A DNA stretch of 64,000 nucleotides, from positions 62,001-126,000 of the forward strand of contig QEUP01000002.1 of the NCBI GenBank assembly GCA_003577145.1, read 5' to 3'. This document shows, one piece after another, positions 7,419-37,908 of this stretch. How positions within the stretch are numbered: position 1 is the first letter of the stretch; each line of letters starts with the position of its first letter. Under the pieces are notes generated by a model, which saw only the letters and a list, made by a program, of their open reading frames with translations, was not told the DNA's origin and made no database searches. The stretch comes from Acidobacteriota bacterium. GTDB lineage: Bacteria; Actinomycetota; Acidimicrobiia; Acidimicrobiales; Microtrichaceae. The position numbers and the translations under genes were made by a program.

Positions 7419-7458
7419 GTGAACGCAAAAGGCCCTCATAGGGGCCACGCGCGTTCAC
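7419..7458. repeat. dispersed palindrome, copy 2 (variant core)
   Basis: GTGAAC ... GGCCCTCATAGGGGCC ... GTTCAC. The core differs from the consensus GGCCCCTATAGGGGCC in the left half. It lies between convergent genes and contains the stop codon of the TorD-like gene (7455). On the minus strand the hairpin is followed by TTTT, so it can serve as the operon terminator. Confidence 0.9.
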
Positions 7459-8099
7459 AAAACGCGTGTGGTGAGGTGGATCTGCTCGGCGGTGACGAAG
7501 TCGTCGAGGAGCGCTGCTGCCGCCCCGTAGAGCGGCGGCGGGCGTAGGTCGCCCACCCGCTTCCGGATGATCGGAGCCCACTTCGTCAGGTGACGGTCGA
7601 GAACATCACCCTGGGCCCGGCGAAACGTCGACGCAGCGTCGCCAGTCGCCTCGGACTCCATGTAGGCGAGGTAGCAGAGGAACTCCAGTACCGCCGGAAC
7701 GGCGTCCGGCAGATCTCGCAACTCGGCGTCTGCTGTGCTCAGGCCGAAGTGGCGGTAGTACCGCAGCAGTTCCTCCATCACCTGACGCCGGTCGCCGGCG
7801 AGGACGCCGCCGTACAGCGGGCAGGGGGTGGCGCCGAGGGGGACGTCGAACACCCGTGTGAACTCCGGGCCGAGAGCCGCCACGTCGCTGCCGGTGAGGG
7901 CGGCGCCGTCGAAGGCAAGTGGGTAGGGAAGTGCAGCCGTCAGCGCCGTCAGCTCCGCCGCGAGGGACCCTGTCGTGTAGGCCCGCGTCAACTCGGGCGA
8001 GGGGTAGGTGAGGACCTCGGCGAGGCGGCCGTAGAGCGCCGACCGCGTGCCGGCGGCCGACTGGTGGGTGCGGGGGTCGACTGTCGTGCCCACGCCCAT
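7455..8099 (-). CDS. TorD/DmsD/NarJ-like molybdoenzyme chaperone (delta subunit)
   Basis: A 214-residue, all-helical chaperone of the TorD/NarJ superfamily, the last gene of the molybdoenzyme operon. The family landmarks ALYGRLAEVLTYPSPEL, PLYGGVLAGDRRQVMEEL and YYRHFGL are present. These proteins bind the apo alpha subunit and help insert the molybdenum cofactor before assembly. The ATG start lies four bases beyond the beta-subunit stop. In ethylbenzene and dimethyl sulfide dehydrogenase operons an equivalent delta gene is also present. The stop codon is within a dispersed palindrome. Confidence 0.9.
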   Translation of the reverse strand: MGVGTTVDPRTHQSAAGTRSALYGRLAEVLTYPSPELTRAYTTGSLAAELTALTAALPYPLAFDGAALTGSDVAALGPEFTRVFDVPLGATPCPLYGGVLAGDRRQVMEELLRYYRHFGLSTADAELRDLPDAVPAVLEFLCYLAYMESEATGDAASTFRRAQGDVLDRHLTKWAPIIRKRVGDLRPPPLYGAAAALLDDFVTAEQIHLTTRVL

Positions 8100-8103
8100 C
8101 GCG

Positions 8104-9150
8104 CTATTGCCGCCGCGGTGTCGGGAGCTCGCCCGGGTCCTCGGTGTAGGGGCCCAGCAGTTCTTGCCAGTTGCGGGAGATGAGCAGGTCCATCAGCTCG
8201 GATTGGCCGCCGCCCGCCACCTTCTCCCGCTCGGCCTCTATGGTGGCCAAGGCGTGGTCGACGCCGGGTCCGAACCACTTGCGGAGGTCTTTCAGCGGGA
8301 TGCGGGACGCCTCTTCGTCGAACTCGCCGTTCTCGTCGAAGGCGGTGGGCATCGTCGGCGGGATGTAGAAGACGTTCGGTTCGACCTCGAAGTCGGGGCG
8401 CAGCGGAAGCGCCACCTTCCACTTCTTCACGAGCTTGTGGATGTGGCTGTCGGGATCGTCGAGGTGGCCGACGTGGCGGACCCGCCCGGGGCACTGTCGC
8501 ACACATGCCGGCGCCACTCCCGCTTCGAGGCGCGGGTAGCAGGAGATGCACTTCTGCGCGATGGCCCGCTGCTCGTTGAAGTAGATGCGTTTGTAGGGGC
8601 AGGCCTCGAGGCAGAAGCGGTAGCCGTGGCAACGCTCCTCGTCGACGAGGATGATGCCGTCCTCCTCACGCCGATAGATCGAATCCCGCGGGCAAGCCTC
8701 GAGGCACGCAGGCTTGGTGCAGTTCATGCAGAGCAGCGGGAGGTAGAAGAAGTACGAGTTCGGGTAGGTGCCCCCTCCGACATCCTCGTCCCAGTTCGGT
8801 CCCCACCTCGGCGCCGAGCCGTCGTGCTCGCGGGGACGCAGATACGAGCTCTCCGAGGAGGGGGAGAAAGCCTCGTCGTAGTCGAAGTCCCAGGCTTCTC
8901 CCCAGTCTGCCCTTCCGGGGAGCCGGCCTGGGACCGGCTCGCCGTCCCGGTAGCCGCCGCCCAGCTCGAAGGCGTCGCGGGGAGTGCCCCGTCCGGGCAT
9001 GGTGTTGACGATGTTCCACCACATCGCCTCCATACCGGTGCCTCGAGTCCACTGCGTCTTGCACGCCACCGTGCAGGTCTGACAGCCGAGGCACTTGTTG
9101 AGGTCGAACACCATCGCGAACTGGTGCTGAGGGGACTGGGTGCTGGCCAC
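8104..9150 (-). CDS. molybdoenzyme iron-sulfur beta subunit
   Basis: A 348-residue electron-transfer subunit with four ferredoxin-type cysteine clusters: CLGCQTCTVAC near residue 20, then CMNCTKPACLEACP, CHGYRFCLEACPYK and CISCYPRL...CVRQCPGR. In the third cluster Tyr replaces the second Cys, as in NarH and EbdB/DdhB types, which predicts three [4Fe-4S] and one [3Fe-4S] cluster. It would pass electrons between the molybdenum subunit and the heme-b gamma subunit. GTG start at 9150 with GGGAG upstream; nine bases follow the gamma stop. No signal peptide. Confidence 0.95.
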   Translation of the reverse strand: MASTQSPQHQFAMVFDLNKCLGCQTCTVACKTQWTRGTGMEAMWWNIVNTMPGRGTPRDAFELGGGYRDGEPVPGRLPGRADWGEAWDFDYDEAFSPSSESSYLRPREHDGSAPRWGPNWDEDVGGGTYPNSYFFYLPLLCMNCTKPACLEACPRDSIYRREEDGIILVDEERCHGYRFCLEACPYKRIYFNEQRAIAQKCISCYPRLEAGVAPACVRQCPGRVRHVGHLDDPDSHIHKLVKKWKVALPLRPDFEVEPNVFYIPPTMPTAFDENGEFDEEASRIPLKDLRKWFGPGVDHALATIEAEREKVAGGGQSELMDLLISRNWQELLGPYTEDPGELPTPRRQ

Positions 9151-9159
9151 GTCTGCTCC

Positions 9160-9822
9160 CTAGTCGATGCGCAACTCGTGCGGTCGTGGCGAATAGGACT
9201 TCAGGCCGGCGCGCTCACCGGCCGCACCCGACCAGATCGCGAAGGCCACCGGAACGGTCATGTCGTGGCTCAGCGGCACGCCCTCAGCGGCCAGGGCGCG
9301 TGCGAGCACCACCTGCCACACGCCATCGGACCAGCGTGCTGCCGCCTTCACGTCGTGCTCGGTCGCCCGAGCGACGGTCCCGATGCCGGTCGCGGTGATG
9401 GCGAAGGGCTCCTCGGTGCCGGCCCGCCAGTGCCAGCCGTTGACCGGCCGGGAGGGGCTGCCCATCGAGTCGTACTCGAAACCGCTGCCGTTGGCGGGGA
9501 ACAGCACCGCGCAAGCATCTGGATGGACGTTGACATCGGATATGAACCGGTTCGGCCTGGCAGCCGACCAGGCGAGCCTCACGGCGAGGGTCCCGGCGTT
9601 GACAAGGGCGGCGACACCCACCTCGCGGATGTCGCCCCTCGGCCGATCGGCCCAGGCGACCTGCACGTAAGCGGAAGGCTGCCGATCCAGAGGCGTGGGC
9701 ACCAACGGGATGGCGACCTCCTGTGCCCGCGACCATTCACCGGACCCGGGGTCGAGGAGGGCCTCCCCGCGGGCCCGGACCCGACGCGCGCCGACAACAC
9801 CGGCCTCGACGGACGAGGTCAC
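9160..9822 (-). CDS. molybdoenzyme heme-b gamma subunit (EbdC/DdhC-like)
   Basis: A 220-residue protein resembling the cytochrome-b-type gamma subunit of ethylbenzene and dimethyl sulfide dehydrogenases. Recognisable features are a beta-sandwich core, MGSPSRPVNGWHWRAG (the Met of MGSP corresponds to a heme axial ligand in the family) and a later WSDGVWQVVLARAL. The start is a GTG at 9822 overlapping the alpha stop as GTGA, so the open frame running further upstream is a shadow. Gene order here is alpha-gamma-beta-delta, unlike ebdABCD (alpha-beta-gamma-delta). No signal peptide is visible. Confidence 0.88.
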   Translation of the reverse strand: MTSSVEAGVVGARRVRARGEALLDPGSGEWSRAQEVAIPLVPTPLDRQPSAYVQVAWADRPRGDIREVGVAALVNAGTLAVRLAWSAARPNRFISDVNVHPDACAVLFPANGSGFEYDSMGSPSRPVNGWHWRAGTEEPFAITATGIGTVARATEHDVKAAARWSDGVWQVVLARALAAEGVPLSHDMTVPVAFAIWSGAAGERAGLKSYSPRPHELRID

Positions 9823-12689
9823 ACCTCCTCCCGCACTCGCTCGACCTGGACCGCCACTTCCTTGGGTACGTGGTTCATGGTCATGTACGCGCCCCGGTAC
9901 TGGAGGTGGCCATATCCACCGATCATGTTGTTCGGCTTGAGCGGGCTGGCGGCGACGTCGTTCTGGGTCGCTCCGTCGGGGAACTGGTAGCCCTCCCACG
10001 CGTGGTAGCAGATGATCTCCCCGGGTTGGACGGCCGGCGAGACCACTGCCCGCAGCTTGAACTCCCCGATGTCGTTGTACACGCGGACCTGGTCGTGGTC
10101 GCTGATGCCCCGCTCGCCGGCATCGGGCTGGCTGATGTAGACCACCGGGCCGCCTCGCTGGAGGCGCAGTAGCTGGCGGTTGGCGCGGAAGATGGCGTGC
10201 ATGCTCCAACGGTTGTGCCCGCCCGTCAGTCGCAGTGGGTACGGCCCGCCTGCCGGCACCGGTTCCTTGTGCACGGCGAGCTCCTCTCCCACCTCCTGGA
10301 ACCAGTCGTGATCGATGTAGAACTGCTGGCGGCCGGTGAGTGTGGGCCAGGGGTCCTTGCGTTTGATGAACCAGCCGAACTGGTTCATGGGCTCGCTGTA
10401 GTCGAAGTCGCTCATCATCGTGCTGAGACCGATCGCCAGGTCGATCGGATCGACCTCTTCGATCCTGACCATGCCGTCCTCGACCGCCTTCTTCCACGGC
10501 TGCTCGCCGAGGTCGGTGGCACGGGTGATCTGCGAGTTGCGCATGATGAAGTCGAGTGCGCGCGTCTCACCCTTCTCGCCTTCGACGTAGTGGCCGTCGG
10601 CGCTGAGCTCGTCGTAGAGGTTGTCGAGCCGGTGGACGTTGCCGTTGGGCTCCTTGTAGGTCTCGATCCCGCGGGCTAACGCCCGTTCCTGCAGCTTCTT
10701 GCCGAGCATCAGCATCACGTCCCACTCGTGCTTCGACTCGTAGAGCTCGGGCACGGCCCGGTCGCCGACCACGACGTAGGGGATGTAGGACTGCACGTAC
10801 TTGATCCCCGGCTTCTCGTAGTAGCCACAGGAGGGGAGGATGTAGTCGGCCCACATGCCCGACGTCGACATGCGGAAGTCGCATGTGACGATCGTGTCGA
10901 TGCTCTTCCACAGGCTGTCGCGGATCGTCTTGGCGTTCGGCCAGCGACGCAGCGGATTCGGGCCCGAGAAGTACAAGAACTTGGGCCGCTTGGGTGGCTT
11001 GGGCAGGATGGGCTGCCAGTTCTTCTCGAAGATCTCGTCCATGTACTCCGACACGGGCCGGCTGAGCGCCGGATCGGCGTAGGCGTCCCGGCCGGCGACC
11101 TTGGCGAACTCGGGGTCGTGCGCGTAGAGCCACGGGATGAGCGGTGTCGCCCGCATCGCCGAGGTCATCATGTCGAACATCATCTTGGAGACGTCTTGCA
11201 TCTGAGCCCGCTTCATCGGCATCGGGCCCGGTGGCTCGGTGGCGAGACGAGGACCGAACGTCGACATGATGAAGCCGGGCATCGGCCACCAGGTCGAAAC
11301 CTTGATCCCCGAGCCGGGCTTGCCGCCGGTGTTGCCGGTGAGCGCCATCAGGTATGCCATGCCGCGCTGGAACAGGTCGGAGTGGTAGTGCTTGCAGGCG
11401 CCCCATGACGAGAAGATCATCGCCGACTTGGCGCGGGCCAGCTCGCGGGCGACGGTCCGGATGTTGCGGGCAGGTACTCCGGTGATCTCGGCGACGGCGT
11501 CGGGTGAGTACTGGTCGAGGTGGTCCCGGAACAACTCGAAGACGGGGCGAACCTTGACCCGGGTGCCGTCGAGCAGCTTGACGTTGTGGGCCCCCTCGAG
11601 TGCGGGGTCCTCGTCGTCGTCCAGCGCGAGGGTCATGATGTCAGAACCCCAGGTGCCGGTTGCCAGGGCCTTACGCCCCTTGGCCTGGTTCCAGTAGTAG
11701 AACTGGTCGTCGGCTCCGTCTTCCACCACGTCGCTCTCACGGAGGAACTTGCCGGTGTCGTCGCGTACCAGGAACGGGAGGTCGGTCTGTTCCTTCAGGT
11801 AGGCCTCGTCGTAGAGCCCCTCTTCGACGATGACGTTGGCCATCCCCAGTGCCAACGCGGCATCGGTCCCGAAGCGGACAGGGAGCCAGCGGTCGGCGTG
11901 AGGTGTCGACGGGCTGAAGTCGGGAGCGATGGAGACGACCTTGGCACCCCGGTAGCGCGCTTCCCAGATGAAATGCGCTTCGGGAACGCGCGTGTAGTTG
12001 GGGTTGCCGACCCAGATGAGGATGTAGTCCGACAAGAACCAGTCGTCTGCCGTGCCCTCGCTCATGTAGGTGCCCCAGGTCTGGATCAACCCGTTTGGCA
12101 GGTCACCCACCCCGGCCCACGAGTCGATGATGGTGGCGCCGAGCGCACTACCGAAGAAGTGCATCTCCATCATCGAGCCGAGGCCGTTGTCGATGTTGGT
12201 GGTGCCCTGGTCGTAGATGACGCAGTCGGGCCCGTCCTCGACCAGGACGTCGATGAGCTTGTCGGCGATCTCCTCGAGCGCCTGGTCCCACGACAGCCGC
12301 TCCCATTGGCCCGAGCCCCGCTCACCGACCCGCTTCATCGGGTACCGGATGCGCGTGGGATCGTACATCTGGATGCTGTAGGCGCACCCGGACGCGCAGC
12401 CCCGGGGATTGAAGTCCGGGATGTGCTCGAACTCCTGCGGGTAGTTGGCGTTCTGCTCCTCGCGCCAGACGATGCCGTCCTTCACGAACGCATCGAGGGA
12501 GCAGGTGGAGATGCAGTTCGTGCGGAGGTGTGACACGTGGACCACGTCATCCCAGGTCCATTGGTCGCGGTACACGTCCTCCCACGCGCGGTACTCGTAG
12601 GGGCGTGAGAGCACATCTTGGAGGCGCTCGGTCGCCTCGATGGGGGCCAGCCGACGAAGGTCGGGTGGCCGAGTGGAGACGTCGGCCAC
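9819..12689 (-). CDS. type II DMSO-reductase-family molybdopterin alpha subunit
   Basis: A 956-residue molybdenum bis-MGD catalytic subunit. The N-terminal Fe-S (FS0) motif reads His54-x4-Cys59-x3-Cys63-x34-Cys98, followed by [22 protein letters not shown], typical of this family. [18 protein letters not shown] and [17 protein letters not shown] match the cofactor-binding core; an Asp in TADDW is a candidate Mo ligand. The C-terminal domain has [14 protein letters not shown] and [15 protein letters not shown]. It resembles ethylbenzene, dimethyl sulfide and steroid C25 dehydrogenases. Unlike those exported enzymes it has no twin-arginine signal. GTG start at 12689. The substrate is unknown. 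Confidence 0.95.
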
Positions 12690-27719: not shown

Positions 27720-27834
27720 GGCGGCACCTGCCGGTCCTCAACTCGACTGCGTGGCGCTCACCATACAGTGGGGGACGGCACGGCCACGAAGCTGGCCCCC
27801 TCCTCCCACACCGGCGGGAAGTAGCCCCTGCTGA

Positions 27835-28440
27835 TCAGGCGCTCGACAGCATGGGGTTCTTCAGATCGAAGTACCTGGCGTCTTTCATGGCTTCCTGGAA
27901 CACCTCCATGCCCGCTTGGGCATCGGGGTGCTCTCCGAGCGCTTTCTCACCCTGGCGTGCGGTGGCCTCGTCGGTGAAGTAGATCGCCTCGGTGAAATCG
28001 CCGTTGCCGGACCAGCACCGGATCGAGCCGATGAGCGCCGGGTGGAGCGACTTGAGGAGCGGTTCCATCGACTCCTCGAGTTCTTGCAGCTCCTCTCGTT
28101 GGGAGGTGCTGCCCTGGATCACCTGCACGAAGCCGGCGGTGTCCGATCCTCCCTCGAAGGCGACCTCGACGTCCTCGGTGTCCCGGAACGCCGGTGCCTC
28201 GGCGAAGCATGCCTCCGCTCTGGCCCACCAATCTCCCTGTTCGGGCCGTTCGCTGTTGGCGTGGGCATCCTGGGCCGACTCGAATCGCGCCAACAGGATG
28301 CCTTGGCCGTCTTCGGTCACCCCGGCGGTGGACCCAAGCCAGCCGGTTGCACCGGGGCTGAGCTTCTCGACCCACTCGTCCAGGAGCCCTGCGAGCCCGT
28401 CGGCGTCCGCGACGGGACCCTGTATCACTTGCACAAACAT
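27835..28440 (-). CDS. tandem antibiotic-biosynthesis-monooxygenase-like domains
   Basis: A 201-residue protein made of two similar dimeric alpha-beta-barrel domains. Both begin FVQVIQG (residues 2-8 and near 104), which shows an internal duplication. Such domains occur in ABM/stress-responsive proteins that bind small molecules or heme. No catalytic residues are evident. It stands alone between acxA and the DUF6544-like gene. Confidence 0.7.
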   Translation of the reverse strand: MFVQVIQGPVADADGLAGLLDEWVEKLSPGATGWLGSTAGVTEDGQGILLARFESAQDAHANSERPEQGDWWARAEACFAEAPAFRDTEDVEVAFEGGSDTAGFVQVIQGSTSQREELQELEESMEPLLKSLHPALIGSIRCWSGNGDFTEAIYFTDEATARQGEKALGEHPDAQAGMEVFQEAMKDARYFDLKNPMLSSA

Positions 28441-28633
28441 GTCTGATTCCCCCTTGTGATGCCTCTCCCCCGTCGGGGAATCCTAGCGTCGAGCGGTTCG
28501 AGTTGCTTGGCCGAGCGGGTCCTGTTGACGATGCCGGTGCCCGCAGCGGCTCACGTCCGTTCTCGGAGGGGCTCCACGAAGCGTGCGAGCATGGTCAGGC
28601 TCGTAGTGGAACGAGGACCGGTAGGCAGGTCGT

Positions 28634-29428
28634 ATGAGCTCGGCGTCAGCGTCTCGGACATGGGCGCAACTGGTTGCAGCTGTCGACGAGGTACCGGCGC
28701 GCTTCGTTCCTGCCACGACAGCTGATCTGCCGGAACCGGCTCAGCGGCTGCTCGACCACGCCCTGCCCGCAGGGGTACGCCTGAGCACGGCGACCGAGTT
28801 GAGGATGGAGGGAGAGATCAGGTTGGGCAGGAGGTGGATGCCGTTTCGTGCCGAACAGATCCTTCGCGCGGGTGCGGGGTTCGTCTGGAGACCTGTCGTC
28901 GGAGGACGGGTCATGCGCTTTGTCGGGGCCGACGAGCTCGGGCCGGACGGCGCAGGAATGGAGTTCCGGTTCCAAGGGATCGTTCCCGTGGCTCGGGCGT
29001 CGGGGCCTGACACGGCAAGAAGTGCGGCCGGCCGCCTGGCTGCCGAGACGGTCGCGTGGCTACCGCAGGCGCTCACCCCTCAGGTGGGGGCCCGTTGGAG
29101 CCCTCTCGACGACCGTCGTGCCGTGGTCACGCTGGAGGCCGGCAGCGAGACCGTTGACGTGGAGGTGCGCGTTGACGCCGAGGGGAGACTCGAGTCGCTG
29201 TGCCTGCAGCGCTGGAACGATGCGGCCAAACCTCCGGCGTTCGAGCCCTTCGGCGGTCGAGTCGAGGGCGAGCATCTGACCGAGGACGGTGTGCGGATCG
29301 CGGGGAGCGGATCGGTCGGCTGGGGCTGGGGCACCGCCGAAGCTGTTCGGGGGGTGTTCTTCCGCTACTCGGTCATCGCCGCCACTCCTCTGCCCGGCGT
29401 CCCCCGGCCGCCGTCCGCGAGCACCTGA
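28634..29428 (+). CDS. DUF6544/DUF6920-like protein
   Basis: A 264-residue soluble protein with LPEPAQRLLDHALPAG near residue 30, MEGEIRLGRRWMPFRAEQ, ETVAWLPQALTP and VTLEAGSETVDVEVRVD, a pattern I associate with the DUF6544/DUF6920 family of predicted lipid-binding-like beta proteins. Function unknown. The ATG at 28634 has a weak ribosome binding site. Confidence 0.6.
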   Translation: MSSASASRTWAQLVAAVDEVPARFVPATTADLPEPAQRLLDHALPAGVRLSTATELRMEGEIRLGRRWMPFRAEQILRAGAGFVWRPVVGGRVMRFVGADELGPDGAGMEFRFQGIVPVARASGPDTARSAAGRLAAETVAWLPQALTPQVGARWSPLDDRRAVVTLEAGSETVDVEVRVDAEGRLESLCLQRWNDAAKPPAFEPFGGRVEGEHLTEDGVRIAGSGSVGWGWGTAEAVRGVFFRYSVIAATPLPGVPRPPSAST

Positions 29429-29466
29429 CGGGCTTCGTGAGTGACCGTTGCTCCATCACCTCGTCG

Positions 29467-29488
29467 CAGTGAAACCCCTCACTGTTTT
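29467..29488 (+). terminator. intrinsic-type terminator
   Basis: CAGTGA, loop AACCCC, TCACTG then TTTT: a six-base-pair stem with U-run 39 bases after the DUF6544-like stop and before the third Asp-rich gene. Confidence 0.55.
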
Positions 29489-29548
29489 GAAACACAACCC
29501 CGCCGCTGCGCATCAGTTCGGCCGCAGCCAAGCATGGAGTTGAGAACG

Positions 29549-30043
29549 ATGAGTGACATGAGTGATTTCGGTGTCGAGCCGATCGGGTTCGACACGGACG
29601 CCAACGGCCTGGTCGACCTCGTGGAAGCCGATCTGGATTTCGACGGCTTGAACGAGTACGCCGCCGCCGACCTCGACCAGAACGGCACCGTGGACTTCTG
29701 GGGCGAGGACGTGGACAGCGATGGCATCAAGGATGTGGCCTTGGCCGACCTCGACGGTGACGGCTACGGCGAGGTGCTGCTGGCAGACGACAACGCCGAC
29801 GGCCTCGTCGACTACATCGGAGTCGACCTCGACGGTGACGGCGTCGATGACGTGTACTCCCAGGATGTCGATTACGACGGCACCTGGGACGACTACATGG
29901 AAGGCGCGCCGGTGACCGCTGACACGCCGGTGACCGCTGACGAGTCGACTGCATACTACGAGCTGGTGCCGGCAGACGAGCCCGTTGCGGCCGGCGCATG
30001 CGAAGGCCCCTTCGACGTCAAGGCGATCCTCGACTCGAAGTAG
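29549..30043 (+). CDS. Asp-rich DxDGDG-repeat protein (paralogue 3)
   Basis: A 164-residue acidic protein with repeated loops (DTDANGLVD, DLDFDGLNE, DVDSDGIKD, DLDGDGYGE, DLDGDGVDD, DVDYDGTWD). The central block around residues 65-110 is nearly the same as in the protein at 3967, including GDGVDDVYSQD. After it comes a tandem VTADTPVTADE and a unique tail. No signal peptide. I chose the ATG at 29549 (MSDMSDFG), which has GGAG nine bases upstream and matches the MSDFDSFD start of paralogue 1. Confidence 0.85.
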   Translation: MSDMSDFGVEPIGFDTDANGLVDLVEADLDFDGLNEYAAADLDQNGTVDFWGEDVDSDGIKDVALADLDGDGYGEVLLADDNADGLVDYIGVDLDGDGVDDVYSQDVDYDGTWDDYMEGAPVTADTPVTADESTAYYELVPADEPVAAGACEGPFDVKAILDSK

Positions 30044-30169
30044 CGGATGGCTCGGCTAGGGAGCGCTCGGTGAGTCCGGCCTTTGGCCCGTTCTCTCAGA
30101 GCGGGCGCTTCCCGGGCCGCGGGTCTTCGGTGATGTCTCCGGCGTGATCAGACCGCATCCTTGCGGCCC

Positions 30170-31372
30170 TCACACGCTCGGTTCGCGGGGCAATCCGAGT
30201 ACGCGCTCGGCGACGATGTTGCGTTGGATCTCGGCGGTGCCACCCCAGATGGTCGAGGAGCGGCTACCGAAGAACTGGGTGTGCCAGCGGGTGGGCTGAT
30301 AGCCGTCGTTGTCCCCGAAGGTGAGGGCATCCGCCCCGAGCACGTCCATGGCGAGCTCGCCGAACTCCCGGTCGTATTCGGACCACAGCATCTTGCTGAT
30401 CGATGCGGACGGACCGGGGTCGCCTCGGTCGACCAGCGACGCAAGGGTGCGCAAGCCACCGTAGCGGATGAGTTGCACATGCGTGTGGGCCCAGGCGAGG
30501 CGCTGTCGCAGGACTGGATCGTCGGCTTTGCCTTCGCGCTGCACGCGCTCGATCAGCCTGTGGAGCGCGGTCTCGAAGCGCAAGTACTGGGTGGCAGCCG
30601 AACCGCCTCTTTCGTTGCCGAGGGTGGTCTTGGATACCTTCCAGCCGTTGTCGAGCCCTCCGATTACGTTGAACAACGGCGCACGCGCACCGTCGAGGAA
30701 CGTCTCGGCGAAGTGAGCCTCTCCGCTGATCTGACGCAACGGCCGTAACTCGATGCCGTTGGTGGGCCGGAAGTCCTCATCACGCTGGAGGGGAACGAGA
30801 ACGTAGGAGATCCCGTCGTGCTTGGGGGCTTGCGGGTTGGTGCGCACGAGAGCGAAGAGCATGGTGGCGTCCCAGTACCAAGACGTCCACACCTTCTGAC
30901 CGCTGACCACCAACTCGTCGCCGTCCACGACTCCACGGGTCTGGACGTTGGCCAGGTCCGAGCCGGCGTCGGGTTCGGAGAACCCCTGGCAGTAGCGGTC
31001 GGTACCGTCGAGGATGCGGGGCAGGAAATGAGCCCTCTGCTCTTCGCTGCCGTGCACGATGACGGCCGGGCCGACCAGCGTCTCACCCATCCCCAGTCGC
31101 GGGCGAGTGACCTCGGCCCTCCGGAACTCGGCATCGACCGCGGCGGCTTCGAGCCCGGACAGGCCGCGACCCCCGACCTCTGTGGGCCAGTTGAGGCACA
31201 ACCAGCGGTGCTCGCGCACCAGGTCGACCCAGGCCCCCTTGGGTGCGAGGCCGCCCATGTCGACGAAGTCCAACCCGACTTCGGCGTACGCATCGAGCCA
31301 GGCGCGCGCCTCAGCAGCCACCGCCCGCGCCGAGGGCCCGAAGTCGAGATCGGGCACCTCGACCACGATCAC
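30170..31372 (-). CDS. acyl-CoA dehydrogenase
   Basis: A 400-residue FAD-dependent acyl-CoA dehydrogenase family protein. It has CQGFSEPDAGSDLAN (flavin loop), VSGQKVWTSW, ATQYLRFETALHRL and the C-terminal FGSRSSTIWGGTAEIQRN, typical of actinobacterial FadE proteins of side-chain or steroid catabolism. GTG start overlapping the enoyl-CoA hydratase stop as GTGA, so the two form an operon (hydratase first). The substrate cannot be assigned. Confidence 0.93.
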   Translation of the reverse strand: MIVVEVPDLDFGPSARAVAAEARAWLDAYAEVGLDFVDMGGLAPKGAWVDLVREHRWLCLNWPTEVGGRGLSGLEAAAVDAEFRRAEVTRPRLGMGETLVGPAVIVHGSEEQRAHFLPRILDGTDRYCQGFSEPDAGSDLANVQTRGVVDGDELVVSGQKVWTSWYWDATMLFALVRTNPQAPKHDGISYVLVPLQRDEDFRPTNGIELRPLRQISGEAHFAETFLDGARAPLFNVIGGLDNGWKVSKTTLGNERGGSAATQYLRFETALHRLIERVQREGKADDPVLRQRLAWAHTHVQLIRYGGLRTLASLVDRGDPGPSASISKMLWSEYDREFGELAMDVLGADALTFGDNDGYQPTRWHTQFFGSRSSTIWGGTAEIQRNIVAERVLGLPREPSV

Positions 31373-32205
31373 AGGTCCTCGGGATAGTCGCCGGTCTTGG
31401 CCAGCTTCCAGGTCGGGCTGCGCTTCTCGAGGAAGGCCATCACGCCTTCAGCAGCGTCGGGCTGTTGTCCGGTCCAGCCGAACAAGCGGTGCTGACGCCT
31501 GGTCGCAGCCGCCCGGTCGGGCTCGGCGAGGAACTCCCACAGCACCCTCTTGGTGATCGCGGCCGAGACCGGTGCGGTATTCGAGGCGATGTCGTGCGCC
31601 AGGTCGATGGCGACGCCCAGCACCTGATCCGGGGGCGTGCACCGATGTACCAGCCCCAGGTCGAACGCCTCCTGACCGCGGAGGATCCGCCCGGTCAACA
31701 GCAAGTCCATGGCCGCGGACGCGCCGATCAGCCTCGGGATCAGCCACAGCAGGTCTGCGTCGGGCATGACGCCGCGTCGGTTGAAGACGAAGCCCAGCTT
31801 GGCGTCCTCAGCAGCCACCCTCAGGTCCCACTCCATCGTCATGGTGAGGCCGGCACCCACGGCCGCACCGTTGATGGCGGCGATGATCGGCGTGTTGAGC
31901 TGGGACGGCGGCCGGGCCCGCATGACGGCGGCGGCATCCTCACTGGTGCCGATGGCATCAGACTCACCCGAGAAGGTCTTGCCACCGCCGCCGAGGTCAG
32001 CACCGGCACAGAAGGCCTTACCTGAGCCGGTGACAACTATCGCCCGGCACGCGTCGGCGTCGAGCACTCCGAAGGCCCGCGCCAGTTCCGCCGACATGGT
32101 CCAGGTCCAGGCGTTCATCCGATCGGGTCGGTTGAGGGTGATCTGTGCCACCGCCCCGTCGCGCTCGACGATTACCTGCTCGAACTCACCAATCTCATCC
32201 GCCAT
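31369..32205 (-). CDS. enoyl-CoA hydratase/isomerase
   Basis: A 278-residue crotonase-superfamily protein. ITLNRPDRMNAWTW and GSGKAFCAGADLGGGG form the CoA-binding and first oxyanion-hole region; AAINGAAVGAGLTM gives the second. LGFVFNRRGVMPDA carries residues where hydratases have a catalytic Glu, but here the position reads FNRRG, so the exact reaction is uncertain. ATG at 32205 (MADEIGEF); the frame upstream runs into a dispersed repeat. Operon with the following acyl-CoA dehydrogenase. Confidence 0.92.
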   Translation of the reverse strand: MADEIGEFEQVIVERDGAVAQITLNRPDRMNAWTWTMSAELARAFGVLDADACRAIVVTGSGKAFCAGADLGGGGKTFSGESDAIGTSEDAAAVMRARPPSQLNTPIIAAINGAAVGAGLTMTMEWDLRVAAEDAKLGFVFNRRGVMPDADLLWLIPRLIGASAAMDLLLTGRILRGQEAFDLGLVHRCTPPDQVLGVAIDLAHDIASNTAPVSAAITKRVLWEFLAEPDRAAATRRQHRLFGWTGQQPDAAEGVMAFLEKRSPTWKLAKTGDYPEDL

Positions 32206-32248
32206 GGGCCACGGTATAGCAGGCAGCGGGACCATGTGCCCCCTTCCC

Positions 32249-32295
32249 TTCTTGGCAGCGTTTCCTGCGCATAGAGGGGGTATTGCTGCCAAGAA
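32249..32295. repeat. second dispersed inverted repeat, copy A
   Basis: Perfect 11-bp arms TTCTTGGCAGC / GCTGCCAAGAA enclose a 25-bp centre (with GCGCATAGAGG). An equally spaced copy is at 34052-34098. The two copies flank the lipoprotein hydrolase gene in the same orientation. Confidence 0.85.
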
Positions 32296-32330: not shown

Positions 32331-33917
32331 TCAGCTCGGGATCGGCGCCGCTTCCGCCTCCTCGATCAGGGCCTGAGCGGCGTCTTCGAGGAGATACCCC
32401 GCGGCCAAGGCCGTCTCGGCAGCCTCGGTGACAGCATCCACATAGTCCTCGTGGGTGGGGTACAGCGATGCCAGCTTCTCTTCATCGAAGGGGATGGTTG
32501 AGCCGAAGAGCATGCAGATGGCCCCACCGTCGGACGTGTTGTCGCCGGTGAGTGTGGCGATCGGGGCATCAACGGCCGGCGAGCGCACGCCGCCGAGTGC
32601 GTTGCCGTTCTCATCTCTGGCGATCTCGCGGTCGTCGATAACCTCGAGGGGAGGAGCCTCCGCGGGCGCCTCGCCGTCGACGATCCAGGTGCGCAGATCG
32701 TCGATCGCCTTGCTCACGACCTCGGTCTGCGGTCCCTGGTTGAGTTGTCCGCAGAGCGAGTCGAAGTCGATGTCGGCGGTGTCGTTCCACATCCGACCCG
32801 ATTCGAATCCGTAGTCGATGGTCGCCTGGTCTGCGTGGGCGGTTCCGGCCACCTCCCATGTGCGGATCATGTCGGTGTCGGGCTGACGGGCGAGGTATGA
32901 CCGTAGCGTGAAGAGGTCCGTCTCCGTCTGGAACTGGAAGACAGGATCTTCGAGATCGGTGCGAATGAACGCCGCGTCGGCGTTGACCGGGACGGCGCCC
33001 TCGCCCAAGGTCCCACCGGTGCCGCTGCGGCTGTGGATGAAGAAGCCGTCGTAGATGTCAGCCAGAGGATGTATCGCGTTGACGTAGGTGACCATCATGA
33101 TCGCCGACTGCGACTCACCAGCGGCTATGACGGTCTCGACGTCGAATCCTTCGAGCGGGTCCGCGCCCTCGGGTCGGCGCAGTGCCTGGGCGGTCTGTGA
33201 GTAGATGTCGTAGGCGTAGTCGTCACCGGGGTGGTCCAGCGTCGCGTAGCGCTCGGGGTCCCATTCCTTCAACGACACGGTTTCGAAGCCCGGTATGGGG
33301 ATCTGGAAGCCACCACCTTCGACGCCGACCTCCTGGGCGGAGACCCCCACGTACGCGTAGCCGTTGTCGAGGAGCATGTCGTGGGCGAACCCGAAGTCGG
33401 GATCGGCGTCCATCCCCGCGCTCACGTTGAGCCATTCCACGAGGACCGTACCGTTGAAGTCCTCGGGGTTGCTCGGCTTCCGCACGACGAAGCGCGTGAC
33501 ATACGGCGCGGTGGTCGACGGAGCGGCGGTCCAGTCGCCGTCGCCCCCCCATGTGCCTTCGCCGGCGTAGGCGCTGGCGGTGCCCTCGATGAAGTACTCC
33601 TCTTCGACGTAGTCGTACTCCTCGGCGAGGCGTGTCGGCATCGGGTTGAACGGCATGTCGTACTCCCCACCTGTCACCGGCCCGGTGATCGTCGGGACGG
33701 CGACGGCTTCACCGCGGACCTCCCCGGCCGTCTCGCCGCCTGTCTCCTCGACCGATGGGTTGCTGTTGGTGTCGCCGCTGTCCTGGTCGTCGGCTCCGCC
33801 GTCCGTCGACGAGCAGGCTGCGGTGAAGAGCGCGACCGCCAGCATCGGGGCGGCCACCCGGAACAGCAACCGCCGAAAGGTGGCAGCCGATGCGGAACGT
33901 CCACCACGAATGCTCAC
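32331..33917 (-). CDS. secreted lipoprotein, alpha/beta hydrolase domain
   Basis: A 528-residue predicted lipoprotein. The N-terminus has an Arg-rich region, a hydrophobic stretch and the lipobox FTAAC (Cys35), then a Ser/Asp/Thr-rich linker. The rest fits the large alpha/beta-hydrolase domain family (Abhydrolase_10 type): VEWLNVSAGMDADPD, a nucleophile in AAGESQSAIMM, and a candidate His in VAGTAHADQ. I chose the GTG at 33917, with GGGGGATC upstream, over the ATG at 33941. It is probably an extracellular esterase. Confidence 0.82.
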   Translation of the reverse strand: MSIRGGRSASAATFRRLLFRVAAPMLAVALFTAACSSTDGGADDQDSGDTNSNPSVEETGGETAGEVRGEAVAVPTITGPVTGGEYDMPFNPMPTRLAEEYDYVEEEYFIEGTASAYAGEGTWGGDGDWTAAPSTTAPYVTRFVVRKPSNPEDFNGTVLVEWLNVSAGMDADPDFGFAHDMLLDNGYAYVGVSAQEVGVEGGGFQIPIPGFETVSLKEWDPERYATLDHPGDDYAYDIYSQTAQALRRPEGADPLEGFDVETVIAAGESQSAIMMVTYVNAIHPLADIYDGFFIHSRSGTGGTLGEGAVPVNADAAFIRTDLEDPVFQFQTETDLFTLRSYLARQPDTDMIRTWEVAGTAHADQATIDYGFESGRMWNDTADIDFDSLCGQLNQGPQTEVVSKAIDDLRTWIVDGEAPAEAPPLEVIDDREIARDENGNALGGVRSPAVDAPIATLTGDNTSDGGAICMLFGSTIPFDEEKLASLYPTHEDYVDAVTEAAETALAAGYLLEDAAQALIEEAEAAPIPS

Positions 33918-34255
33918 CTTGATCCCCCCACTGTCGATCACCCTTCGATGGCCGTAATCAGAACCGCTGGGCCCGGTGCTGTCAACCGCGCTGGGGTGGT
34001 GTTCGTCGCCTGGCCAAGGCGTCCGAGATCACAACGGGCCTCTGCCCCTCGTTCTCGGCAGCGTTTCCCGCGCATAGGAGGGGTATTGCTGCCAAGAAGC
34101 GGGGGTGGGCAACATGGATGTGCGGCGCGGCGCGGTGAGGACCGCTGGGGGGCTCCACTTGCAATCACGGGCGATCCCGGCGAATCTCGCTGGATGCGAG
34201 GCTCACTATTCCTTTCGACACCTTCCGGTGACCACCTGTCGAGGAGAACGCTGCC
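33918..34255. other. 338-bp divergent intergenic region
   Basis: It separates the lipoprotein hydrolase (minus) from the orphan molybdopterin subunit (plus). It contains the second copy of the GCTGCCAAG repeat at 34052-34098 and GAGGAG before the ATG at 34256. Nothing else is recognised. Confidence 0.5.
34052..34098. repeat. second dispersed inverted repeat, copy B
   Basis: Same length, spacing and centre as the element at 32249-32295, with one mismatch in the left arm (TTCTCGGCAGC). Sequence identity continues a few bases past the right arm (GCGGGG). Confidence 0.85.
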
Positions 34256-36976
34256 ATGAGCACCACCCCGGTTCAGCGGTGGTCCTGGGATCAGGTGACC
34301 TGGGCTTCCCACTGCGGCAACTGCATAGCCAACTGCGCCTACCGCATCTACGTGGCCGACGGGAAGGTGGTGCACCAGGAGCAGTCCGGCGGCCTGCCTG
34401 CCTACGAGGGCGTGCCCGACATGAACCCTCTTGGCTGTCAGAAGGGCGGCGCATGGCACACTCAGGCCGACGGCGACGAGCGGCTGTTGCATCCGCTGCG
34501 CCGGGTGGGCGAGCGCGGCTCGGGCGAGTGGGAGCAGATCAGCTGGGACGAGGCCCTCGACTGCCTCGCCGACGCCGTCATCGACGGCATCGAGGGCGAG
34601 GGAGTGCACTCGATCCTGATGGACCCCGGCCCCGAGTCGGGTGTCGCCGGTGGTCAGGGTCGGGCCCGCCTGGGCGCGGCGATCGACTCGGTCGCTCTGG
34701 ACAGCAACTCGACGGTGAGCGACGTCCACCTCGGGCACTGGATGACCTTCGGGAGCCTCCTCGGTGGTTCCAGTGCCGACGACACCTTCCGCGCCGACGT
34801 GATCCTGGTGTGGAACGGGAATCCCGCCTTCACGCGGATCCCGTATTTCCACTACCTGCCCGAGGCCCGCTACCGCGGCGCCAAGGTCGTGTTGATCGCG
34901 CCCGACTACAGCCCATCGGCCATGCACTGCGACATGCACGTGGCCCTCCGCCCCGGGTCCGATGCTGCATTGGCGCTCTCGATGTGCCGCGTGATCCTCG
35001 ACGAGGGTTGGGCCGACCTCGACTTCGTCCGATCCCAGACCGACCTCCCCCTGCTCGTGAGAACTGACACGGGTCGGTTCCTCCGCAGCGAGGACGTCGA
35101 CCCCGACGGTCGGAGCGACCGCTTCTTCGTCTGGCGGGGCGGCGCACTCACGCCGTCCGACCCGGTGCGCCTGGACGACCCGGGCGCACCTTGCGACGTG
35201 GTGCTCGAGGGGCGCTGGCCCGTCACGCTGCTCGACGGCACGGAGGTCGAGGTGACGCCGGTGTTCGAGCTGTTGCGCGAGCGACTCGATGGCTACTCGC
35301 CCGAGGACGCGGCGAGCTTGTGCGACGTCAGCCCCGAGACGATTCGCCGGCTGGCCCGGATGGTCTCGTCGGGCCGGACGAAGCTCCAGAACGGGCTGGG
35401 GAGCTGCAAGCATCATCACGGCGACCTGATGGAACGATCGATGGATCTGGTGCTGGCGCTCACCGGCAACTGGGGGAAGCCCGGAAGCGGATTCGACACC
35501 TACATCATCGCCCTCCTCGACGGCGAGGTCCTGGGGTTGCTCAAGGGCACTGCCGGCATCGAGTCGGCCGAGGCTGCGGTGGCCGGCCTCGAGGCCTATC
35601 TCGATGCCATGAAGGCCTCCGATCCGGCCATGACCGACGGGCGGGCCGTGCTCCAGATGATGCAGACCAACGCTCCGAGCATGCCCTCCACGCCGCCGGC
35701 GTTCTTCTTCTGGTACCACTGCGGTTTCGACGAGATCTGGGAACACCAGGGTTGGAGCGACAGTCCTCGACCCTTTGACGACTACATCCGCGAGTCCCAG
35801 TCCAAGGGGTGGTGGAGCGGGCTGGTCCGGCCCCGCCCCCAGGTCACACCGCGAGTGCTGTTCCAGGCCGGCACCAACGCCCTCCGGCGCACGCGTGGCG
35901 GGCAGCGCCAGCTGCTCCAGCACCTGTGGCCGAAGTTGGACATGATCGCGGTGCTCGACTGGAAGATGAGCACGGTCGGTCTGTACGCAGACCTCGTGCT
36001 GCCGGTGGCCTGCGAGCACGAGCGGCTCGACCTCCACGCCGCCAACTCGCATTCATGGGAGCGGATGCTCGCCGACAAGGCGGTCGAGCCACGGGGTGAG
36101 TCCCGCTCCGACTGGGAGATCTTCCTCGGGCTGGCCGAGGCCATCACCCGGCGGGCGGCCGAGCGGGGGCTCGACACGTTCGCCGACTCCCGCGGTGGCA
36201 CCCGCGAGTACGCCAAGGTGTTCGACGAGTTCACGATGGGAGGCGCCATCAAGACCGAGGAGGCGATCATCGACGAGGTCCTGCGTGACAGTGCGCTGGC
36301 CGGGAACCTGGCGCCGGGGACGTCGGTGGCATCGCTGCGGGAGACGGGCTGGGTGCGGCCCGTCGAGCTGCCTCGGGTGATGTCGGGGGTGTGCGCGGGT
36401 GATCTCGACGACGACGGACCCTTCGTGGCATACCGCCACCACATCGAAGGCATGCCGTTCCCGACGCTCACCGGGCGGGCACAGTTCTATCTGGACCACC
36501 CGTGGTTCCTGGAGGCCGATGAGCATCTGCCGGTCCACAAGGACCCGCCGGCTGCCGGCGGCGACCACCCTCTCCAACTCACCGGCGGCCATCCCCGGTG
36601 GAGCATCCACGCGACCAACACGTCGAGTCAGATGATGCTCGAAACCACCCGCGGTGGACCGACCATCCACATCAATCCCGACGATGCCGCCGCGCGGCAG
36701 GTCGAGGACGGAGCCACCGTCCGGGTCTTCAACGACGTGGGAGATCTTCGGGTGCAGGCCCGCATCTCGGCCTCGATCCGGCCGGGACAGGTCGTCCTCT
36801 ACGCGTCATGGGAGCAGTACCTGTACCCGGAGTGGAAGGACGTGACCTGGGTAGAGCCGGGCATGGTGAAGCCGCTGCACTTCGCCGGCGGCTACGGCCA
36901 CCTGGCGTACTCCGATCTGCAGTGGCAACCCCAGCAGTCCGACCGGCTCTTTCGCGTCGACGTCGAGCGGGTCTGA
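34256..36976 (+). CDS. orphan type II molybdopterin oxidoreductase alpha subunit
   Basis: A 906-residue molybdopterin enzyme paralogous to the alpha subunit at 9819. The FS0 motif is textbook: His19-x3-Cys23-x3-Cys27-x33-Cys61. [35 protein letters not shown] and [17 protein letters not shown] match the core, and LQLTGGHPRWSIHATNT the C-terminal domain. No twin-arginine signal. ATG start with GAGGAG upstream. No beta, gamma or delta gene is adjacent; the next gene is a PF10118-type protein. It could use the subunits of the first operon or work with another electron carrier (inference). Confidence 0.93.
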   Translation: MSTTPVQRWSWDQVTWASHCGNCIANCAYRIYVADGKVVHQEQSGGLPAYEGVPDMNPLGCQKGGAWHTQADGDERLLHPLRRVGERGSGEWEQISWDEALDCLADAVIDGIEGEGVHSILMDPGPESGVAGGQGRARLGAAIDSVALDSNSTVSDVHLGHWMTFGSLLGGSSADDTFRADVILVWNGNPAFTRIPYFHYLPEARYRGAKVVLIAPDYSPSAMHCDMHVALRPGSDAALALSMCRVILDEGWADLDFVRSQTDLPLLVRTDTGRFLRSEDVDPDGRSDRFFVWRGGALTPSDPVRLDDPGAPCDVVLEGRWPVTLLDGTEVEVTPVFELLRERLDGYSPEDAASLCDVSPETIRRLARMVSSGRTKLQNGLGSCKHHHGDLMERSMDLVLALTGNWGKPGSGFDTYIIALLDGEVLGLLKGTAGIESAEAAVAGLEAYLDAMKASDPAMTDGRAVLQMMQTNAPSMPSTPPAFFFWYHCGFDEIWEHQGWSDSPRPFDDYIRESQSKGWWSGLVRPRPQVTPRVLFQAGTNALRRTRGGQRQLLQHLWPKLDMIAVLDWKMSTVGLYADLVLPVACEHERLDLHAANSHSWERMLADKAVEPRGESRSDWEIFLGLAEAITRRAAERGLDTFADSRGGTREYAKVFDEFTMGGAIKTEEAIIDEVLRDSALAGNLAPGTSVASLRETGWVRPVELPRVMSGVCAGDLDDDGPFVAYRHHIEGMPFPTLTGRAQFYLDHPWFLEADEHLPVHKDPPAAGGDHPLQLTGGHPRWSIHATNTSSQMMLETTRGGPTIHINPDDAAARQVEDGATVRVFNDVGDLRVQARISASIRPGQVVLYASWEQYLYPEWKDVTWVEPGMVKPLHFAGGYGHLAYSDLQWQPQQSDRLFRVDVERV

Positions 36977-37050: not shown

Positions 37051-37908
37051 ATGACGATGACAAAGGCGTTTCCCGCTGCCGAATCCGCTGATCTTCCGGA
37101 GGGCGTGGTCGTGCAGCCTCGGCGCTACGAGTTCGAGGGCCTCGAGGACATCCCTCAGTACTGGTTCGCGCACAACCCGATCACCACTCACGTCGAGAAC
37201 GCCTTCTCGATCCTGATCCCTCCGGGTGAGCGCTTCTTCATCCGGTCTGTGCGCCACTACGCCGACCAGGTGACTGATCCCGACACCCAGGAGCTGATCA
37301 GGGCCTTCTGCCAGCAGGAGGCACTCCACACAAAGGCGCACAATGAGCTCAACGCGTCCTTCAAGCGCTTCGGCATCGACGTCGACCGCGAGATCGCCTA
37401 CGCCGATCGTTCTATGGCAGTGATCGCGCGGATCCTGTCACCCAAGTCGCAACTGGCGGTGACCGCGTTTCTCGAGCATCTCACGGCCACCGGCGCGCAC
37501 ATGATGTTCCAGGAAGCGGACTTCATGGAAGAGAAGATGCACCCGGAGATGCTGCGTTTCTGGCGCTGGCATGCGGCTGAGGAACTCGAACACAAGGCGG
37601 TGGCCTTCGACCTCTACCACCGGATCGGCGGCGGCTACGTGCGACGGGTGCTGTGCGCAGTTGCGACCGCCGTGCTGCTCGCGGTGCCCTTCGTCCGCAT
37701 CGCACGTCGGATGATGCACGAGGACCCGCACAACGTCACAGCCGCCGAGCGCGAGGAGGCACGCGCGATCGACCGGAAGCTCACCAGGGCACAGCTCAAG
37801 CCGATCCTGGGGTTCTTCAAGCGTGACTTCCATCCCTGGAACGCGCACGACGAGGCCTATCTGCGGGAGTGGTACGCCGCGGACGAGACCGCCGCCCAAC
37901 GAAGTTGA
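37051..37908 (+). CDS. predicted metal-dependent hydrolase (PF10118-like)
   Basis: A 285-residue protein of the predicted metal-dependent hydrolase family (PF10118). It has VRHYADQVTDP, FCQQEALHTKAHNELN and WRWHAAEELEHKAVAFD, whose spaced Glu/His pairs resemble a ferritin-like di-metal site, and one hydrophobic segment (VATAVLLAVPFVRIARR). ATG start with CGGAGG upstream. It follows the orphan molybdopterin subunit on the same strand and could be co-transcribed. Confidence 0.88.
   Translation: MTMTKAFPAAESADLPEGVVVQPRRYEFEGLEDIPQYWFAHNPITTHVENAFSILIPPGERFFIRSVRHYADQVTDPDTQELIRAFCQQEALHTKAHNELNASFKRFGIDVDREIAYADRSMAVIARILSPKSQLAVTAFLEHLTATGAHMMFQEADFMEEKMHPEMLRFWRWHAAEELEHKAVAFDLYHRIGGGYVRRVLCAVATAVLLAVPFVRIARRMMHEDPHNVTAAEREEARAIDRKLTRAQLKPILGFFKRDFHPWNAHDEAYLREWYAADETAAQRS

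Follow-up and report, generated by a model that had tools for sequence, protein, structure and literature searches.

The available part of PMC10100899 lists the characterised molybdenum-dependent C-H hydroxylases S25dA, CmdA and EbdA as periplasmic. Ethylbenzene dehydrogenase (EbDH; EbdABCD of Aromatoleum aromaticum, PDB 2ivf) is a periplasmic enzyme with His192 in its active site whose heme b is held by Lys and Met, as stated in the available part of PMC8840923, and the gamma of the type II relative NxrABC (7b04) has the same Met/Lys pattern. In Sterolibacterium denitrificans, several S25DH/S26DH alphas are combined with fewer beta-gamma sets, and a common beta3-gamma3 and one chaperone are used, according to the available parts of PMC6016249, PMC6153880 and PMC7411048; alpha1, alpha2 and alpha3 are each described as active with beta3-gamma3 (PMC6016249, in part), and alphas 5-8 are reported to have beta-gamma clusters of their own (PMC7411048, in part), so that a multiplicity of alphas alone is no proof of sharing. 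In these partial accounts steroid C25 dehydrogenase (S25DH) also lacks an equivalent of EbDH His192 (PMC6153880), its alpha1 bears a Tat sequence, with a periplasmic location proposed for it, and its gamma carries heme b. Sharing of beta-gamma among alphas as such has thus already been shown for Sterolibacterium; the ratio of 12 alphas to one set reported below (against eight alphas and six sets in the S. denitrificans accounts), the missing Tat signal and a candidate gamma without the presumed heme-b Lys are new here.

The gene under study, W34, occupies positions 34256..36976 (+) of the window, a 64,000-nucleotide stretch of contig QEUP01000002.1 (assembly GCA_003577145.1), and encodes a 906-aa orphan alpha of the type II DMSO reductase family that resembles EbDH and S25DH in its domains, alignment and AlphaFold model. 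The frame is intact from an ATG start, and a ribosome-binding-site-like GAGGAG (34241..34246, +) ends 9 bases before it. A profile search found the molybdopterin domains PF00384 (106 bits) and PF01568 (63 bits); TIGR03479 matched with 801.1 bits (E 1.3e-240), below its curated cut-off of 984.75 bits, which no match reached in any of the 21 family genomes. Residues 7-905 align end to end with residues 70-975 of EbDH alpha (2ivf_A, E 1.6e-200), and the AlphaFold model (mean pLDDT 87.6) has the EbDH alpha fold over its whole length, with 2ivf_A as its best PDB match (TM 0.93/0.92, rmsd 2.8); EbDH is also the closest solved structure to the gamma. The TM scores were about 0.86 with perchlorate reductase and, query-normalised, 0.78-0.80 with NarG, and the NxrABC alpha, which exceeds 1100 aa and catalyses a different reaction, is distant (TM 0.60-0.76). 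The earlier note had described a full-length alpha paralogue with an intact FS0 motif, and this was borne out exactly: the [4Fe-4S] ligands H19, C23, C27 and C61 (34310..34438, +) are invariant in 12 alphas of the same genome (W10, the alpha of the other operon in the window, not included) and in all 87 alphas of a larger alignment (W10 included). One His and three Cys at FS0, together with an Asp as Mo ligand (D156, 34721..34723, +, aligned to EbDH Asp223), place W34 in type II, and EbDH Lys450, which is hydrogen-bonded to that Asp, corresponds by alignment to K385 (35408..35410, +); both residues are kept in 87/87 aligned alphas. Since W10 carries them too, D156 and K385 cannot separate the W34 type from the W10 type. 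His192 of EbDH is replaced by G125, and 87/87 rows have G, T or S there; the Mo-Asp, the Lys and the lack of a His192 equivalent are common to W34 and S25DH, the latter being compared through its partial description rather than its sequence. CmdA (p-cymene dehydrogenase) and AhyA (anaerobic alkane hydroxylase) belong, by description in the available parts of PMC10100899 and PMC7803848, to the same hydroxylase branch. Because the fold, the Mo-ligand Asp and its Lys match those of the ethylbenzene and steroid C25 dehydrogenases, W34 is likely to be an oxygen-independent C-H hydroxylase of the EbDH/S25DH type, as predicted from sequence and model.

Just 8 open codons precede the W34 ATG in frame, too few for a Tat signal, and no RR motif occurs among them. 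RR-type matches were likewise absent from 69 of 74 relatives; among the other five, L080 and L136 have theirs shortly before the start and three lie in long upstream frames, and by eye no hydrophobic stretch follows any of them in the sequence inspected. W34 is probably cytoplasmic, and in this predicted location it differs from S25DH alpha1 and from CmdA, as it does from periplasmic EbDH, from which it also differs in being unlinked to partner genes. Nitrite oxidoreductase is described as intracellular in the title of PMC8387239.

Genes for an acyl-CoA dehydrogenase and an enoyl-CoA hydratase lie upstream of W34 on the opposite strand (30170..32292, -), with an Abhydrolase_10 gene (32331-33941) between them and W34. 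As the earlier note had stated, no beta, gamma or delta gene stands beside W34: genome searches place such matches on this contig only at 7.6-9.7 kb of the window (delta 7.6-7.9 kb, beta 8.5-8.8 kb, gamma 9.2-9.7 kb), and scanning all six frames between 28 and 44 kb revealed no ferredoxin-type Cys motifs. The PF10118 'Metal_hydrol' protein that the note had pointed to is real (37051..37908, +, 236.6 bits), its ATG lying 74 bases past the W34 stop on the same strand, but its link to W34 found no support; it was rejected as a conserved partner since no homologue at E 1e-5 occurred in 91 other stretches (16 from the same genome and 75 relatives' loci, with only L084 and part of L080 as close relatives with readable flanks), and it is an incidental neighbour. 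A conserved cluster of W34 neighbours (acyl-CoA dehydrogenase, enoyl-CoA hydratase, Abhydrolase_10, 2TM, desaturase and PLP enzyme) was also rejected, as only generic acyl-CoA dehydrogenase, enoyl-CoA hydratase and PLP enzyme matches were obtained, in 6 stretches.

W34 had been called a second alpha, a description that the genome (completeness given as 96.6%) does not allow: it encodes 13 type II alphas, each scoring at least 767 bits, 11 of them orphans, and two type II beta-gamma-delta sets. Two further PF00384 proteins of this genome, C23x and C40x, are 22-28% identical and were left out of the tree. There are four Fer4_11 betas in all, two of them NarH-like, two gamma loci and four deltas; a dedicated beta for W34 elsewhere in the genome was sought among these four and rejected. 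The first set belongs to the window operon at 7.4-12.9 kb, which lies about 22 kb from W34 and encodes a TorD/NarJ-like delta chaperone (7455..8099, -), a type II Fe-S beta (8104..9150, -), an EB_dh-family gamma (9160..9813, -, start codon not fixed) that still has the Met and Lys presumed to bind heme b, and the alpha W10 (9819..12689, -). The second, on a different contig (C13), comprises delta (25724-26389), beta (26411-27499) and gamma (27513-28106) adjoining an alpha of its own, C13c (28121-30991), which is 74% identical to the orphan C51o. Twelve alphas of one clade thus stand against this single C13 set. At the presumed heme-b Met and Lys positions, as located by alignment, the C13 gamma has Leu and Gly, unlike the heme-b-carrying gamma of S25DH, and the presumed Lys is lost in 21 of the 32 gammas compared, all of them tblastn matches longer than 150 aa that scored more than 80 bits. 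Loss of heme proved too broad a criterion to mark the gamma-beta-delta-alpha clade as a whole: the Lys is still present in L124 and L135, the deepest of its 25 rows, and L128 has Arg instead.

The phylogeny of both alphas that the earlier note had proposed was built, and it put W10 on a very long outlier branch (37% identity to W34, 35-37% to the other twelve alphas of the genome) and W34 in one clade with C8o, C34a and C3o (support 100/100). The tree includes two fragments, L080 (798 aa, at a contig end) and L092 (735 aa up to a stop), but not the partial alpha L131. In the sister clade 22 of 25 alphas directly follow a delta gene, compared with 0 of 18 in the W34 subclade (Fisher 2e-9), which makes the orphan state of the W34 type an old one. 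Of the 15 genomes with a W34-type alpha, this one counted, 12 have a C13-type beta (at least 64% identity to C13), and 4 have betas at W10's distance (51-61% to C13). The three without a C13-type beta are all draft records: in G022 the best beta reaches 54% and contains one stop, and in G030 and G033 there is none at E 1e-40. What would have contradicted the earlier note, a beta/gamma pair of its own in constant linkage with this type of alpha, was not found: linkage within 9 kb is occasional, seen in 4 of 12 genomes (G023, G025, G027 and G034, split frames being counted), and the C13 set has its own adjacent alpha. In a 295-genome sample of the class, scored for the top two candidates of each genome and so informative on presence but not on copy number, 8 genomes had a beta at E 1e-100, 7 of these with at least 64% identity; all 8 carried a type II alpha, and 2 genomes had an alpha without such a beta.

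With no beta or gamma to spare in the genome, borrowing is the likeliest reading, and this part of the earlier note's proposal stands; the 7.4-12.9 kb operon that it suggested as lender is the weaker candidate. That operon is complete, its gamma keeps the presumed heme-b residues and it shares a contig with W34; its beta is 53% identical to that of C13, making cross-assembly conceivable, and in G022 the best beta is the one at 54%. We nevertheless regard it as a quite improbable source of W34's beta, gamma and delta, with an outlier alpha, betas of its distance in only 4 of 15 genomes and no W10-type set in the covered flanks of W34-subclade relatives. Phylogeny, co-occurrence and linkage fit the C13 set better, which makes it the likeliest partner. 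It is unlikely, too, that W34 and the other orphans dispense with a beta and that a ferredoxin, ETF or flavoprotein takes electrons straight from FS0. In its favour, 18/18 members of the subclade have neither a delta nor a beta next to the alpha, the orphan C3o lies in line with genes for ETF, an OB-fold (ChsH2-type) protein and thiolase, and 5 of 18 rows have flavoprotein genes ahead of the alpha, but the C13-type beta is kept in most of these genomes and close to the alpha in four, and the ETF neighbour of C3o is not common to W34. To our knowledge, the characterised type II relatives all use a beta.

Acetylene hydratase is a DMSO-reductase-family enzyme with an Fe-S cluster and without a beta, and the orphan status of W34 would fit such a non-redox enzyme that needs no electron partner; W34 also matches 2e7z, which we take to be acetylene hydratase, weakly. 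This reading is very improbable given the type II Asp with its EbDH Lys partner and a match to EbDH that is much stronger than the one to 2e7z (E 1.6e-200 vs 1.8e-14). Hardly credible is a functionless, decaying duplicate: the family is multi-copy and W34 an orphan, but its frame, catalytic and cluster residues are kept, NG86 dN/dS is 0.22 against both L084 and the paralogue C8o, indicating purifying selection, and relatives at 72-74% identity occur in two other genomes.

We favour, with moderate confidence, W34 as an interchangeable catalytic alpha of a cytoplasmic EbDH/S25DH-type hydroxylase served by the C13 delta-beta-gamma set, about a dozen related alphas probably taking turns on this one shared set of electron carriers. 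W34 would be a substrate-specific alpha, exchangeable on a common core; the C13 delta chaperone would mature it and the C13 beta and gamma would assemble with it, and this set, encoded once, would be shared with as many as eleven further alphas. Hydroxylation of a C-H bond with water would take place at the Mo-bis-MGD site, with D156 as ligand and K385 beside it, and electrons would run from FS0 of W34 to the clusters of the beta. We infer both the physical partnership with C13 and the hydroxylase activity. More tentatively, there may be a cytoplasmic 'hub' in which a heme-b-free Fe-S/gamma core receives about a dozen genome-scattered alphas, each acting on an isoprenoid or alkyl substrate of its own, and delivers electrons to a new acceptor rather than a periplasmic cytochrome c, possibly the CopD-like membrane pair or the nitroreductase-like protein that share its gene cluster. 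For a conserved 496-aa protein the model was poor (pLDDT 58.9) and the nitroreductase matches were weak but consistent; neither fold nor sequence comparison gave a match under E 0.001.

If one cytoplasmic core does serve a dozen alphas, the substrate range could grow by single-gene duplication, which would explain the scattered orphan alphas, and subunit exchange could be tested by pairing one core with any alpha. A further pointer would be to oxygen-independent breakdown of sterols or terpenoids in Acidimicrobiia, of which the titles and abstract starts of the literature matches listed hold no description; Acidimicrobiales homologues of delta-24 desaturase are mentioned in the available part of PMC11061730. 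Perhaps each swap-in alpha targets a different recalcitrant molecule of steroid or terpene type, with no need for oxygen, and for W34 a sterol-, terpenoid- or alkyl-chain substrate may be envisaged, with a product that would enter CoA-dependent beta-oxidation. The substrate hints come from the neighbours of other alphas and not from those of W34 itself. Acyl-CoA dehydrogenase, thiolase and ETF genes adjoin the alphas C8o, C34b and C3o, and the flavoprotein genes upstream of W34-type alphas in 5 of 18 subclade rows are limonene-dehydrogenase/delta-24-desaturase-like, a type of flavoprotein present in 12 copies in this genome.

The alpha gene studied here, W34 (34256-36976, forward strand), encodes a 906-aa protein from an ATG start preceded by GAGGAG. 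A Pfam search found both molybdopterin-enzyme domains in it, and its best model was TIGR03479 (type II DMSO reductase alpha; 801 bits, E 1.3e-240), although this score misses the curated cut-off of 984.75. The alpha subunit of ethylbenzene dehydrogenase (EbDH, 2ivf_A) aligned across the length of W34, and a predicted AlphaFold structure (22-row alignment, mean pLDDT 87.6) gave TM scores of 0.93/0.92 against 2ivf_A, about 0.86 against perchlorate reductase and 0.78-0.80 against NarG, query-normalised. For comparison, relatives were taken from the best 80 of 408 matches in one contig scan, giving 75 loci from metagenome-assembled drafts; this sample is referred to as the best 80. The FS0 [4Fe-4S] ligands H19, C23, C27 and C61, correctly named as the FS0 motif in an earlier note, are kept in 87/87 aligned alphas (13 from the own genome, 74 relatives from the best 80), as are W34 Asp156 and Lys385, aligned with EbDH Asp223 and Lys450; where EbDH has His192, every one of the 87 has G, T or S. 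Steroid C25 dehydrogenase likewise lacks an equivalent of His192, according to excerpts of PMC6153880. All functional claims on the W34 system rest on homology, by which this Asp/Lys/His pattern is read as that of an oxygen-independent C-H hydroxylase and not of an oxyanion reductase, with the limit that the Asp and Lys also occur in the alpha of the window operon (W10).

Beta and gamma (electron-transfer subunits) and delta (chaperone) genes were not found near W34 by genome family searches or a local frame scan, in agreement with the orphan status proposed earlier. Its description as a second alpha falls short, as W34 is one of 13 alphas scoring at least 767 bits on TIGR03479 in its genome, a 4.05 Mb draft of 68 contigs with completeness given as 96.6%. 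The genome holds four Fer4_11 betas (by score, two type II and two NarH-like), two gamma loci and four delta chaperones. The alpha expansion thus consists of 13 type II alphas against two complete sets, with eleven alphas orphan. One set is the window operon (W10 alpha, 9819-12689); the other, on contig C13, runs from delta (25724-26389) through beta (26411-27499) and gamma (27513-28106) to the alpha C13c (28121-30991). W34 is 71% identical to the orphan C8o, 60% to C34a, 52% to C3o, 42% to C13c and 37% to W10, and C13c shares 74% identity with the orphan C51o. An expansion of this kind was not found in 20 other genomes of the family, and none in Acidimicrobiia was found described among the literature matches listed, which does not prove its absence. 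Separately, two NarG/NarH/NarJ-type loci (C13, 4.8-11.6 kb; C16, about 88.5-95.2 kb) suggest nitrate respiration in the host.

A large tree of 87 rows, comprising the 13 alphas of the own genome and every relative locus except the partial L131 (74 of 75), was built by a quick method with SH-aLRT only, and 37 of these rows entered a more careful tree. In the latter, W34 branches nearest to the Microthrixaceae alphas L080 and L084 and then to C8o (both 100/99). In the large tree, the W34 subclade comprises 18 rows, with a 10-row group containing C3o as sister. A further sister clade of 25 rows joins them at a fork supported by SH-aLRT 83 in the large tree and by 100/100 in the 37-row tree. The W10 alpha forms a very long outlier branch. 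Among these rows, whose relatives all come from the best 80, delta lies directly upstream of alpha in 22/25 of the sister clade (exceptions L104, L117 and the own C13o) versus 0/18 of the W34 subclade (Fisher 2e-9). Gene order therefore splits along the alpha tree, and the orphan state of the W34 subclade is old and stable, and no accident of the own genome. Among the relatives, the QEUQ01 records ('Acidobacteria bacterium ATN3'; L085, L086, L093, L117, L143) gave ten type II alpha matches, split frames included; they coincide with a genome of the own genome's class (G026/G043), and their title appears to be a taxonomic error.

The earlier note had suggested that W34 may borrow the electron-transfer subunits of the window operon (reverse strand) or use a different partner. 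The 18 rows of the W34 subclade come from 15 genomes within the best 80, of which 12/15, own genome included, carry a beta with at least 64% identity to that of C13; betas in the range of the W10 beta (51-61% identity to C13) occur in 4/15. The best beta of G022 is 54% identical to the C13 beta and carries one stop, and no beta matching it at E 1e-40 was found in the draft genomes G030 and G033. In four of the 12 genomes (G023, G025, G027, G034; copy counts in this survey include split frames), no more than 9 kb separates the W34-type alpha from a C13-type beta; the chance expectation is about 0.6% per genome for a single beta in a genome of 2.9 Mb. Across a 295-genome class sample, a beta at E 1e-100 was found in eight genomes, seven of them at 64% identity or more; all eight hold a type II alpha, two genomes have alpha without beta and 285 have neither, the alpha count taking in W10-like proteins. 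Given this co-occurrence and linkage, the C13-type set is the best candidate partner of W34, with the window operon as a weaker one. As a precedent, excerpts of PMC6016249 report that Sterolibacterium denitrificans has fewer beta-gamma than alpha genes, that sharing was proposed, and that alpha1, alpha2 and alpha3 each gave active enzyme with beta3-gamma3. The tally there is eight alphas to six beta-gamma pairs (PMC6153880, in part), compared with 13 alphas to two sets here; that alphas 5-8 have their own beta-gamma clusters (PMC7411048, in part) counts against a simple sharing reading.

The W34 frame has just eight open codons 5′ of its ATG and therefore no room for a Tat signal, whereas S25dA, CmdA and EbdA are listed as periplasmic in a table of PMC10100899. 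An RR-type match was found in 5/74 relatives from the best 80, shortly before the start in L080 and L136 and within long upstream frames in L094, L110 and L115; by eye, a hydrophobic stretch followed none. The heme b of EbDH is ligated by one lysine and one methionine (excerpt of PMC8840923), and from conservation in EbDH, NXR and W10 gammas we infer that these correspond to the 'G-x-K-S' and 'MG' motifs, respectively. Among 32 distinct gammas aligned, the presumed Lys is replaced by Gly or Ala in 21, 16 of which also lack the Met; these 21 EB_dh-family gammas are the own C13 gamma (L033, 7514-8107) and 20 relatives (L084, L125, L116 and 17 of the sister clade). The other 11 keep the Lys in ten cases and have Arg in L128. 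The ten include L124 and L135, which branch deepest in the 25-row clade, so the loss of the Lys occurred within that clade. With Lys, and often Met, replaced, the candidate shared beta-gamma core may lack heme b or bind it another way.

Candidates for electron exit are two tandem membrane proteins, one scoring as CopD (L033 13752-14840; C13, 33.75-34.84 kb), an AMP-binding protein and a 496-aa protein (L033 14837-16327; C13, 34.84-36.33 kb), families that recur at 17, 18 and 15 of the loci compared, respectively. Pfam and NCBIfam searches gave no match for the 496-aa protein, which shows weak, consistent similarity to nitroreductases. An Rrf2 regulator and MobB adjoin these C13 genes.

Regarding substrate, the neighbours of other orphans point to CoA-dependent breakdown: an acyl-CoA dehydrogenase gene adjoins C8o, C34b neighbours a thiolase, an acyl-CoA synthetase, a nitroreductase and an acyl-CoA dehydrogenase, and C3o neighbours ETF, a ChsH2-type OB-fold protein and a thiolase. 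Flavoproteins lie upstream of the W34-type alpha in 5/18 rows (L083, L088, L089, L091, L133; best 80), and their motif resembles the covalent-flavin consensus of delta-24 steroid desaturase and limonene dehydrogenase, taken from an excerpt of PMC11061730. Together, these neighbours and flavoproteins make a sterol-, terpenoid- or alkyl-chain substrate plausible for W34. A profile from eight such flavoproteins found 12 genes in the own genome, nine on C59 and three on C19, with a loosened flavin motif in 9/12 and the GFxxxxHA form in 6/12; these paralogues (C59, 4.7-37 kb; C19, 40-71 kb; L161-L164) include several adjacent genes.

The ferritin-like PF10118 neighbour noted earlier is real, 74 bases downstream of W34; an association is not supported, as a homologue was not found in the other 91 stretches, of which just L084 and part of L080 are fair tests. 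Elsewhere in the window, 29441-30043 (forward strand) encodes a 200-aa acidic protein with repeated DxDxDG-like units that looks like a calcium-binding repeat.
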